NCBI RefSeq assembly: GCF_014207185.1 | Contig: NZ_JACHCP010000008.1 | Location: 1-64,000, forward strand | Length of the DNA: 64,000 nucleotides | Reading direction: 5' to 3' | Source: Rhodanobacter sp. A1T4 | GTDB lineage: Bacteria > Pseudomonadota > Gammaproteobacteria > Xanthomonadales > Rhodanobacteraceae | Shown here: one piece after another, positions 10,410-12,866 of the stretch | How the letters are laid out: each line of letters begins with the position of its first letter | Numbering within the stretch: position 1 is the stretch's first letter | Position numbers and translations under genes: made by a program | The notes under the pieces: model-generated | What the model saw: only the letters and a program-made list of their open reading frames with translations | Told to the model about the DNA's origin: nothing | Database searches by the model: none

Positions 10410-10787
10410 ATGATCGAACAAATGCAAGGACTGCCTGCCGGTACGCTGGGCTTTCGCGCCATTGGCCAGGTCACGGCCGCCGACTATGAACGCGTGATTG
10501 TTCCTGATGTCGAGGCGGCGTTCGCGTTGAATCGCAAATTGCGGCTGATTTATCACATTGGCGAGGACTTCACTGGTTTCGATCCCGGCGCCATGTGGGA
10601 CGACGCCAAACTCGGCATGCGTCATCTCAGCGGCTGGGATCGCGTGGCGCTGGTCACTGACGTCCCGTGGTTGCGCATGACGGCGACGGCAATGGGCTTT
10701 GCCGTTCCGGCAGAATTCCGGCTGTTCGGCAATGCTCAACTCGCCGAGGCCAGAAGCTGGATCAGCGAGCTGCCACGGGGTGAGTAA
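10410..10787 (+). CDS. SpoIIAA-like (STAS/SEC14-type) protein
   Basis: A 125-residue cytosolic protein starting at ATG 10410 after GAGGAGCACGCG. The pattern GLPAGTLGFRAIGQVTAADYE, RLIYHIGEDFTGFDPGAMWDD, WDRVALVTDVPWLR and FRLFGNAQLAEARSWI matches the small SpoIIAA-like family (PF11964 type), which adopts a STAS-like fold. The biological role of these stand-alone proteins is not known. It lies 90 bases after recJ and 70 bases before the asparagine leader peptide; it is probably its own unit. Confidence 0.85.
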   Translation: MIEQMQGLPAGTLGFRAIGQVTAADYERVIVPDVEAAFALNRKLRLIYHIGEDFTGFDPGAMWDDAKLGMRHLSGWDRVALVTDVPWLRMTATAMGFAVPAEFRLFGNAQLAEARSWISELPRGE

Positions 10788-10856
10788 GCAGGGCAACAAC
10801 CCAATCAATGCATCGATGGACTTGCGCCGAAGCGCTGTATCTGTTTTAGTCAGGCT

Positions 10857-10979
10857 ATGACTTCAATGACCGCCAGCTTCTTGACCACCGATGTGCTCCC
10901 CGCACAGACGGTTGTGCTTGCGGGCAACAACAATAATCGCGCGAATAATAACGCCAACCGTTGGCGGGCCCTCGCGTAG
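10857..10979 (+). CDS. Asparagine-rich leader peptide of the asnB attenuator
   Basis: A 40-codon frame from ATG 10857 to TAG 10977-10979, not previously flagged as a gene because of its size. Codons 24-34 read N-N-N-N-R-A-N-N-N-A-N, eight Asn codons in eleven, at 10926-10958. It is followed by competing hairpins and then by asparagine synthetase. This is the layout of amino-acid attenuator leader peptides (compare HisL, TrpL, ThrL), here with Asn as the sensed residue. An in-frame ATG at 10866 is an alternative start; the ribosome site (CAGG) is weak for both. The peptide itself probably has no function beyond being translated. Confidence 0.75.
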   Translation: MTSMTASFLTTDVLPAQTVVLAGNNNNRANNNANRWRALA

Positions 10980-11034
10980 TTCGGATTCCACGAAAGACAC
11001 GCGAAGAAGGCCCGCCCAGTGCGGGCCTTCTTCG
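10952..11034 (+). promoter_or_regulatory. Transcription attenuator of asnB (alternative hairpins)
   Basis: Segment 1, CGCCAA (10952-10957, within the last Asn codons), can pair with TTGGCG (10961-10966). Segment 2, GCGGGCC (10964-10970) plus TCGCGT (10972-10977), can pair with segment 3, ACGCGA (10999-11004) plus GGCCCGC (11009-11015). Segment 3 can instead pair with segment 4 (11021-11034) in a 14-bp terminator stem. A ribosome stalled on the Asn codons would mask segment 1, let 2 pair with 3 and prevent termination, raising asnB expression when Asn-tRNA is scarce. Pairing is read from the sequence; the mechanism is inferred by analogy. Confidence 0.72.
11002..11034 (+). terminator. Attenuator terminator hairpin before asnB
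   Basis: Perfect 14-bp stem CGAAGAAGGCCCGC (11002-11015) with GCGGGCCTTCTTCG (11021-11034) and the loop CCAGT. The right arm is U-rich at its end (CCUUCUUCGUUA), but the unpaired U-run is short, so termination may be partial. Confidence 0.7.
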
Positions 11035-11041
11035 TTATGGC

Positions 11042-11124
11042 CATGGATGGCCGGTATGCCGGAAATGCAGGAGCAATTTCCGGCCAGCACATGGATGGCC
11101 TTATGCCGAAACGCAGGAATAAAT
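11042..11124 (+). repeat. Imperfect 35-bp direct repeat in the asnB leader
   Basis: The stretch beginning CATGGATGGCCGGTATGCCG (11042) recurs in diverged form at 11090 as CATGGATGGCCTTATGCCG; both continue through GAAA(T/C)GCAGGA. The first copy is followed by a GCCGGAAAT / ATTTCCGGC hairpin (about 11058-11084). The repeats lie between the attenuator and the asnB ribosome site, and could be a duplication or a second regulatory structure. Confidence 0.5.
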
Positions 11125-11183
11125 CGCCGGGTATCCCGGTTTGTAATTGGAAAGTCTATTCAGACAAACAAAGGGGAAGTGCG

Positions 11184-12866
11184 ATGTGTTCGATTTTTGG
11201 AATGTTTGATCTGCAGCCGGGCGATGATCTGGCACAGTTGCGTCGCCAGGCTTTGGAACTCTCGCAACGGCAGCGCCATCGCGGGCCGGACTGGAGCGGC
11301 GTATTTGTCGACGCTGGCGCGATCCTGGTGCACGAGCGCCTCGCCATCGTTGACCCAGCCAGCGGTGCGCAACCGCTGCGCTCGCGCGACGGCGCGCTGG
11401 CGCTCGCGGTGAACGGCGAGATCTACAACCACCGCGAACTGCGTGCCGGTAGTGATTACGATTTCACCACCGGTTCCGATTGTGAAGTCATCAACGCGAT
11501 GTACCGCGATGGTGACGAGGATTTCATCAACAAGCTCAACGGCATCTTCGCGTTCGCGCTATGGGACGGTGAAGCGCAGCGCTACCTGATTGCCCGCGAC
11601 CCGATCGGTGTGTGCCCGCTGTATTGGGGTCACGATACGCATGGCCGTCTGTGCGTGGCCTCTGAGATGAAATCGCTGGTCGGGCTGTGCGCCGATGTCA
11701 CAGCGTTTCCGCCCGGCCATATCTACGACAGTGTCAGTGGTGAGCTGCGCCAGTACTACGTCAAACCATGGCGCGACTATGCGCATACACAGGGAGAGTC
11801 AGTGGAACCGGCCGATCTGAAGCTCGCTTTTGAGCAGGCTGTACATCGCCAGCTGATGACTGATGTGCCCTATGGCGTGCTGCTATCCGGTGGCCTTGAT
11901 TCGTCACTGGTCGCTGCGTGCGCGGCCCGTTTTGCCCGTGAGCGCATCGAGGACGAGGATCGCAGCGAGGCTTGGTGGCCGCGGCTGCATTCGTTCGCGA
12001 TCGGCCTGGACGGCTCACCCGATCTGGCCGCGGCGCAGATCGCCGCCGATGCGTTGGGCACCGTGCATCACGGTTTCGTCTACACCTTCTGGGAAGGGTT
12101 GGACGCGTTGCCCGAGGTGATTCGTCATATCGAAACGTATGACGTCACTACCATCCGCGCTGCCACACCGATGTATCTGCTGGCGCGTCGCATCAAGGCG
12201 ATGGGCGTGAAGATGGTGCTATCGGGCGAGGGCTCGGACGAGCTGTTCGGCGGTTACCTGTATTTCCATAAGGCACCGTCAGCTGAGGCGTTCCACGAGG
12301 AGACTGTGCGTAAGATCGACGCGCTGCACAGCTACGACTGCCTGCGTGCCAACAAGGCGATGATGGCCTGGGGTGTCGAGGCACGGGTGCCGTTTCTCGA
12401 TCTGGAGTTCATCGATGTGGCGATGGGCATGGACGCGAAACACAAGATGGTCGATAAGACCGGCGACGGCAAACGCAAGATAGAGAAATCAGTGCTGCGC
12501 GAAGCGTTCGAAGGCGCGCTGCCGGAAAAAATTCTTTGGCGCCAGAAAGAGCAGTTCAGCGATGGCGTCGGCTACGGCTGGATCGACGGGCTAAAGGCTC
12601 AGGCCGAGCAGGCCGTCAGTGATCGCGAATTTGCCGCTGCAGCAGCGCGTTATCCATTCAATACGCCAGCGACCAAGGAGGCCTATTACTATCGCCGCAT
12701 CTTCGAGCAGCACTTTCCTGGTGAAGCCTGCGCGGCCACGGTGCCCGGCGGCAAGTCGATCGCCTGTTCGTCACCGGCCGCGCTGGCATGGGACCCTGCC
12801 TTTGCCAATGCCGCCGACCCATCCGGGCGCGCCGTGCGCGGCGTGCACAGCGACGCGCTGGCCTGA
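11184..12866 (+). CDS. asnB: Asparagine synthetase B (glutamine-hydrolysing)
   Basis: A 560-residue enzyme making asparagine from aspartate, glutamine and ATP. ATG 11184, after AAAGGGGAAG, places the catalytic Cys at position 2 (MCSIFGMFDL), as needed for the N-terminal glutaminase; an upstream open frame is leader DNA. The glutaminase domain carries RHRGPDWSG and VNGEIYNHRELR; the synthetase domain has the ATP-pyrophosphatase loop LLSGGLDSSL at about 237-246 and SGEGSDELFGGYLYF further on. Close to E. coli AsnB (554 aa) in length and motifs. An Asn-rich leader peptide and alternative hairpins lie directly upstream, and a strong terminator follows. Confidence 0.96.
   Translation: MCSIFGMFDLQPGDDLAQLRRQALELSQRQRHRGPDWSGVFVDAGAILVHERLAIVDPASGAQPLRSRDGALALAVNGEIYNHRELRAGSDYDFTTGSDCEVINAMYRDGDEDFINKLNGIFAFALWDGEAQRYLIARDPIGVCPLYWGHDTHGRLCVASEMKSLVGLCADVTAFPPGHIYDSVSGELRQYYVKPWRDYAHTQGESVEPADLKLAFEQAVHRQLMTDVPYGVLLSGGLDSSLVAACAARFARERIEDEDRSEAWWPRLHSFAIGLDGSPDLAAAQIAADALGTVHHGFVYTFWEGLDALPEVIRHIETYDVTTIRAATPMYLLARRIKAMGVKMVLSGEGSDELFGGYLYFHKAPSAEAFHEETVRKIDALHSYDCLRANKAMMAWGVEARVPFLDLEFIDVAMGMDAKHKMVDKTGDGKRKIEKSVLREAFEGALPEKILWRQKEQFSDGVGYGWIDGLKAQAEQAVSDREFAAAAARYPFNTPATKEAYYYRRIFEQHFPGEACAATVPGGKSIACSSPAALAWDPAFANAADPSGRAVRGVHSDALA

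Follow-up and report, generated by a model that had tools for sequence, protein, structure and literature searches.

What might tie the expression of asnB to the supply of asparagine in Rhodanobacter, and could a short asparagine-rich reading frame ahead of the gene serve as the sensor? We addressed this question in a window of 64,000 nucleotides from Rhodanobacter sp. A1T4, the whole stretch of DNA that was analysed. In enterobacteria, the trp, his, thr, leu, ilv and phe operons are controlled by ribosome-mediated attenuators, among them the Rfam families His_leader (RF00514) and Thr_leader (RF00506). The asnB leader resembles them in its repeated codons for the amino acid being made, its 1:2, 2:3 and 3:4 stems and its intrinsic terminator before a biosynthetic gene, and it differs from them in counting asparagine, in its probably leaderless frame and in belonging to no Rfam family. 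An earlier note on this DNA had ascribed to the leader the full logic of His-, Trp- or Thr-type control. The analysis supports that proposal, as every feature that we looked for at the level of the sequence was found, and we consider it very probable that the element is a ribosome-mediated transcription attenuator counting charged tRNA-Asn ahead of asnB.

The Rhodanobacter leader and its alternative stems

The leader peptide frame runs on the plus strand from an ATG at 10857 to a TAG at 10977–10979 (10857–10979; 40 codons and a stop), as found by direct reading and rechecked by script. Eight of the eleven codons at 10926–10958 on the same strand (AAC AAC AAT AAT CGC GCG AAT AAT AAC GCC AAC) specify asparagine, so that the frame, if translated as predicted, would confront the ribosome with a cluster of codons for the amino acid that AsnB makes. 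A 40-codon frame with eight Asn codons in eleven was what the earlier note had described, and its coordinates held on rechecking. A genome-wide scan for AAYAAYAAY-N(0-9)-AAYAAYAAY returned a single site in the 5.08-Mb genome, with two overlapping matches; the pattern was absent from the other strand, and the reversed control pattern gave no match in the genome. The leader peptide matched no Pfam or NCBIfam family.

Three plus-strand stems follow from the sequence of the leader. The segment 1:2 anti-antiterminator hairpin (10939–10977) appears in the minimum-energy fold, where 10952–10957 pair with 10961–10966 and an outer stem joins 10939–10944 to 10972–10977. The antiterminator (10964–11015) pairs segment 2 (10964–10977) with segment 3 (10999–11015) and is supported by the partner test and the masked folds described below. 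Between the frame and the gene, a predicted intrinsic terminator (11001–11035), for which covariation provides evidence, pairs segment 3 (11001–11015) with segment 4 (11021–11035) and has a U-rich 3′ arm. Antiterminator and terminator are mutually exclusive because GGCCCGC (11009–11015) is common to both, and the antiterminator would be freed on the predicted stalling of the ribosome. Three stems, the antiterminator and the terminator made exclusive by GGCCCGC, had been claimed from the letters alone, and both direct reading and the fold reproduced them; in the fold, a pair between 11001 and 11035 lengthens the terminator by one beyond 11002–11015 with 11021–11034.

The calculated energies were −28.0 kcal/mol for the antiterminator, over the region that begins 15 nt beyond the first Asn codon and closes with segment 3, and −29.4 kcal/mol for the terminator. 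A 194-nt leader folded at −74 kcal/mol (z = −3.1 against shuffles) and showed the 1:2 hairpin together with the terminator. When the ribosome-free RNA was folded only to the end of segment 3, the antiterminator was already the lowest-energy state, and an untranslated off state therefore needs the 1:2 hairpin to have formed first. The stop codon falls on the 3′ boundary of segment 2, where a ribosome finishing the frame would cover that segment; the placement was similar in those leaders of relatives that were inspected. The U-tract is modest, with 6 U in the 10 nucleotides after the G+C core (mean 7.1 in 68 representative leaders), and the plus-strand U-rich stretch falls inside the 3′ arm of the stem. 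A plain consensus scan listed this terminator on the minus strand and left it unlisted on the plus strand.

The downstream gene asnB (11184–12866, plus strand) encodes a glutamine-hydrolysing asparagine synthase B of 560 amino acids plus stop, with the Pfam domains Asn_synthase and GATase_7, and its product is an equivalog of NCBIfam PRK09431 (850 bits against a cut-off of 499). By direct reading, its Shine-Dalgarno-like sequence AAGGGGA (11171–11177, plus strand) lies outside all the hairpins named above. The genome search found one full-length AsnB of the E. coli type and an asparaginyl-tRNA synthetase (AsnRS; 615 bits, cut-off 342.6), and found neither GatB nor AsnA. With the AsnB equivalog and AsnRS both present, the claim that the downstream gene makes the counted amino acid was borne out, and asnB would supply the very aminoacyl-tRNA that the leader is predicted to sense. 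AsnB is likely to be the main source of asparagine, although there is also a second asparagine-synthase-like protein (638 amino acids, with segments 41% and 35% identical; L002, G000:C1 about 514771–515853). The frame of this second protein adjoins another that we read as glycosyltransferase-like. Between the terminator and asnB, at 11042–11111, there are direct repeats, CATGGATGGCC and TATGCCGRAA each occurring twice, about 48 nt apart.

Conservation and coevolution in related families

We collected asnB upstream regions mainly from Rhodanobacter and Dyella, and also from Frateuria, Fulvimonas, Dokdonella and unclassified metagenome bins, with further regions from genomes of the same family (f1), the same order and the same class. 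The second family, f2, is presumably Xanthomonadaceae, judging by its membership of the order. The 189 regions reduced to 163 distinct ones, each of at least 120 nt. In a direct scan, a leader was defined as an Asn-rich frame with a stop codon followed by a stem 19–34 nt after that stop; a loose test demanded at least three Asn in 12 codons and then a stem of at least seven pairs. The scan found 137 leaders among the 163 regions, distributed as 114/122 in f1, 20/21 in f2 and 3/3 in a third family (f3). The median was seven Asn in 12 codons; 124 of the 137 leaders had five or more, and the other 13 had three or four. Nine f1–f3 regions had no leader: L063 and L111, whose upstream sequence is too short (123 and 250 nt), and seven f1/f2 loci carrying a different AsnB (63–66% identical).

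When no selection for Asn was applied, 119 of 140 regions reached five or more Asn per 12 codons in the 300 nt nearest asnB, against none of 140 control stretches taken 700–1000 nt upstream, whereas threonine (42 against 4) and proline (62 against 23) showed smaller rises in the same comparison (n = 140). The loose test passed two of 133 control stretches located 400–1000 nt upstream in f1–f3, neither with five or more Asn. Leader length ranged from 20 to 80 codons with a median of 40, as counted from the promoter-linked ATG in the 125 leaders that have one; the amino-terminal part and the length vary, and the Asn run and the segment-2 codons persist. Of the 406 Asn codons in representative leaders, 202 are AAT, compared with 40 of 269 in the asnB genes of those representatives whose asnB sequence was in the set (Fisher p = 2e-21). 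Such over-use of AAT in leaders might slow reading or keep the Asn run unstructured.

A covariance model built from 42 f1 leaders was searched against genomes of the family, and its matches up to 600 nt upstream of asnB on the same strand were counted. It found the element in 96/96 f1 genomes with an asnB at least 78% identical, 25–387 nt away and on the same strand; these 96 come from 113 f1 genomes with an AsnB match, after exclusion of 16 with AsnB of 61–66% identity and of G028, with a partial match. Among the best 95 matches, 94 were those upstream of asnB, and the remaining one, in G028, lay at the expected start of a partly matched asnB (residues 202–560). Some match at E ≤ 0.01 was present in 138 of 147 genomes of the family, and matches were compared with asnB positions down to about E = 1e-6. 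Of seven stretches retrieved (L214–L220), the two inspected, L214 and L216, hold matches away from asnB and were rejected as leaders: they are 3′-end terminators of NifU-like-domain genes sharing the GGCCCGC stem. Matches on the stem alone mean little, because the GGCCCGC/GCGGGCC core is reused at ordinary gene ends.

For counts of structure, thinning the 137 leaders at 90% similarity left 68 representatives. Seven terminator pairs showed changes in both partners (87 cells, compared with 14.7 after shuffling); the 100% pairing of the terminator itself arises by construction, because the leaders were selected for having a stem. Segment 2 paired better with its own segment 3 (−23.4 kcal/mol) than with permuted partners (−20.4 kcal/mol), and none of 20,000 permutations was as good. 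The advantage of the own partner also held within f1 and within f2, in permutations that control for relatedness only partly, and was absent in the two f3 representatives. The own partner was seldom the single best, with a median rank of 13 among 68 right arms and 9 among 68 left arms. Against shuffled left arms, the antiterminator was better by more than two standard deviations in 44/68 representatives and no better in 4/68. Two positions before the stop, 27 of 50 f1 representatives have a C-G pair and 17 a U-A pair; in the leaders inspected, this change turns a GCG codon into GTG (Ala to Val) and comes with a matching change past the stop.

The lower antiterminator helix was paired in 91.6% of cells, compared with 89.9% in shuffles and 26–48% when slid. 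It contained seven double-change cells in two pairs, with pair types not above those in shuffles, and sliding it by one to three columns in the 5′ direction gave more double-change cells (8–13) but far fewer paired cells. Taken alone, this helix appears to offer modest support, and partner matching the stronger test. The RNAalifold consensus of the alignment contained the terminator and no antiterminator. Per-sequence duplexes and partner permutation were used because the stems are exclusive and the upper antiterminator helix is displaced by one or two columns in the alignment. Folding with and without a masked Asn run had been suggested as a check, and it agreed with the proposed switch: in simple folds, masking up to the first Asn codons gave the antiterminator in 63/68 leaders (absent in 5/68), and the full leader gave the terminator in 65/68 (absent in 3/68). 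At least three nucleotides of the segment-2 core were paired upstream, as expected of a 1:2 hairpin, in 63/68. The upstream alignment itself had been set beforehand as a test, and homologous leaders were found to keep both the Asn run and covarying stems across the three families.

Proposed mechanism and its alternatives

A promoter is predicted immediately ahead of the leader, with the −35 element TTGCGC at 10822–10827, whose TTGC is conserved in position among leaders, and the −10 element TTTAGT at 10845–10850, located by direct reading 17 nt after it on the plus strand, with similar spacing in relatives. TTTAGT ends 6 nt before the leader ATG. With any in-frame ATG of a leader accepted (about two per leader), TTGC was found 35–37 nt before an in-frame ATG in 125/137 leaders, against 12/945 control ATGs; a −10-like match was present in 77/137 leaders against 24/945 control ATGs, and both elements together in 74 leaders and at no control ATG. 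Shine-Dalgarno-like 4-mers precede 4/128 leader ATGs, against 131/137 asnB starts. A generic consensus scan found no sigma-70 promoter at the leader. A transcription start downstream of 10979 had been named beforehand as an observation that would speak against an attenuator, and the predicted promoter is instead upstream of the frame. A frame for a SpoIIAA-like (PF11964) protein, 10410–10787 on the same strand, adjoins this promoter on its upstream side.

The leader transcript probably starts at the AUG itself and is thus leaderless, because the conserved promoter ends 6 nt before the ATG, spaced for a start there, and no Shine-Dalgarno sequence accompanies it. The same attenuator might alternatively reside on a conventional leadered mRNA that starts further upstream. 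The start site is a predicted one, and the −10-like match stands at the expected place in just 77 of the leaders, which leaves room for a leadered transcript; the near-constant position of TTGC relative to an in-frame ATG and the scarcity of Shine-Dalgarno-like 4-mers, however, argue against it, and we regard it as unlikely, though not negligibly so. An Asn-specific attenuator with its leader peptide on a leaderless RNA, conserved in three or more families of a single gammaproteobacterial order, is a reading that we find reasonably probable.

Under this reading, RNA polymerase would start at 10857 or a few bases from it, and the 5′ end of the RNA would be the leader AUG. With ample Asn-tRNA, the ribosome would pass the eight Asn codons, reach the stop at 10977–10979 and cover segment 2; segment 3 would then pair with segment 4, and transcription would end before asnB. 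With Asn-tRNA in short supply, the ribosome would halt in the Asn run and cover segment 1. Segment 2 could then pair with segment 3 ahead of the synthesis of segment 4, so that the terminator would be blocked and asnB transcribed. In the absence of translation, the 1:2 hairpin and the terminator would be expected to form, the off state. The codons, the exclusive stems, their conservation and coevolution, the placement of stop and promoter and most of the metabolic wiring can be read from the letters and their comparison; the true start site, the stalling and the read-through on asparagine starvation we infer. Since the first ribosome would load on a bare 5′ AUG behind the polymerase, read-through into asnB would report both the charging of Asn-tRNA and the capacity for leaderless (70S) initiation.

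Could the frame instead encode a functional Asn-rich small protein, the hairpin being merely its terminator? In favour of this, an open frame is maintained in 137 leaders. Its amino-terminal part and its length vary, however, while the Asn run and the segment-2 codons persist; moreover, segment 2 fits a segment 3 that is located past the stop, and in at least 14 relatives asnB lies within 28–35 nt of the terminator. We therefore hold the small-protein reading to be highly improbable. The same distances bear on the idea that the terminator ends upstream transcription and that asnB has a promoter of its own between 11036 and 11183. The distance from terminator to asnB is widely variable: the 148 nt present in the window, with their two short direct repeats, could accommodate such a promoter, whereas the gap in relatives is as short as 28 nt and amounts to 60 nt or less in 79/138 leaders (L182, discussed below, included). 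The terminator ending 28–35 nt before asnB in at least 14 relatives leaves little room for a second promoter; in addition, the conserved promoter sits between the upstream gene and the leader, and segments 2 and 3 change together, which makes an independent asnB promoter very unlikely. The least probable of these explanations is that a trans-acting sRNA or a leader-binding protein, and not the position of the ribosome, works the switch. The leader RNA is indeed strongly structured, but the enrichment near asnB is for asparagine, with threonine and proline rising far less, the leaders favour AAT where asnB does not, and no Rfam family reaches its cut-off in the leader.

Distribution and relation to known systems

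Outside f1–f3, we examined 77 asnB upstream regions, comprising 17 plus 19 (f8/f10) of the order and 41 from other gammaproteobacterial families, the latter with AsnB 56–64% identical. None of the 77 combined at least five Asn in 12 codons with a terminator stem, and seven (L182, L247, L252, L254, L260, L265 and L274) passed the loose test, among which only L182 and L265 combined four Asn with a stem rich in G+C (6 G-C pairs). The element thus appears to be restricted for the most part to a few families within a single order. The best candidate outside f1–f3 is L182 (G218, f8), with a frame of 22 codons, four Asn in 12 codons and a terminator located 21 nt downstream of the stop and 27 nt upstream of asnB; it might be either a relic or of independent origin. 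At L265 (G768, f181), a frame about 200 nt upstream of asnB has four Asn in 12 codons and is followed, 22 nt past its stop, by a G+C-rich stem that carries a U tail; this may be where an ordinary gene ends.

Asparagine supply is tied to asparagine genes in other ways by AsnC, the DNA-binding protein of E. coli asnA, and by the Asn T-box leaders of Firmicutes, which bind tRNA directly. The asnB leader shares that connection with both and differs from them in having a leader peptide. Closer in form are two cysteine systems. According to the portion of PMC8632094 consulted, the Cys leader uORFC-8-2 precedes cysS in Rhodobacterales, and stalling there is proposed to permit transcriptional read-through; like the asnB leader, it is a conserved frame ahead of a gene and contains codons for the amino acid at issue, and unlike it, it concerns cysteine, a tRNA synthetase gene and alphaproteobacteria. 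The polycysteine short ORFs that mycobacteria read from leaderless transcripts (Canestrari et al. 2020, as described in PMC9031893; cited in PMC13236596) share with our element, if it is leaderless, a leaderless short frame in which a run of a single codon acts as an amino-acid sensor, whereas they count cysteine, occur in mycobacteria and are described as regulating translation of downstream genes (PMC9031893). Xanthomonas AsnB2 was unchanged among additional genes in qRT-PCR, in a passage of PMC3771888 that makes no remark on a leader.

The earlier note had suggested that an Asn attenuator of this kind may be undescribed. That suggestion stands as far as the literature matches listed are concerned, since none of them, including the parts consulted of PMC2965389, PMC8632094, PMC3771888, PMC9031893 and PMC13236596, reported one; subscription papers lay largely outside the scope of that search, and absence from print is not established by it. 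If the reading is correct, control by leader-peptide attenuators extends to asparagine as well, and if the transcript is leaderless, the leader offers a natural system for the coupling of ribosome and polymerase from a 5′ AUG without a Shine-Dalgarno sequence. The leader may also serve as a marker for the asnB promoter in the order. A well-kept element can evidently still be missing from the Rfam library searched: no family reached its cut-off in the leader, where the best plus-strand match was Thr_leader (RF00506) at 25.5 bits against a cut-off of 55, and His_leader (RF00514) had no match in the genome. Elsewhere in the genome, sub-threshold Thr_leader matches (33 bits) at G000:C4:133241-133329 on the minus strand and G000:C10:209296-209408 on the plus strand may represent other attenuators.
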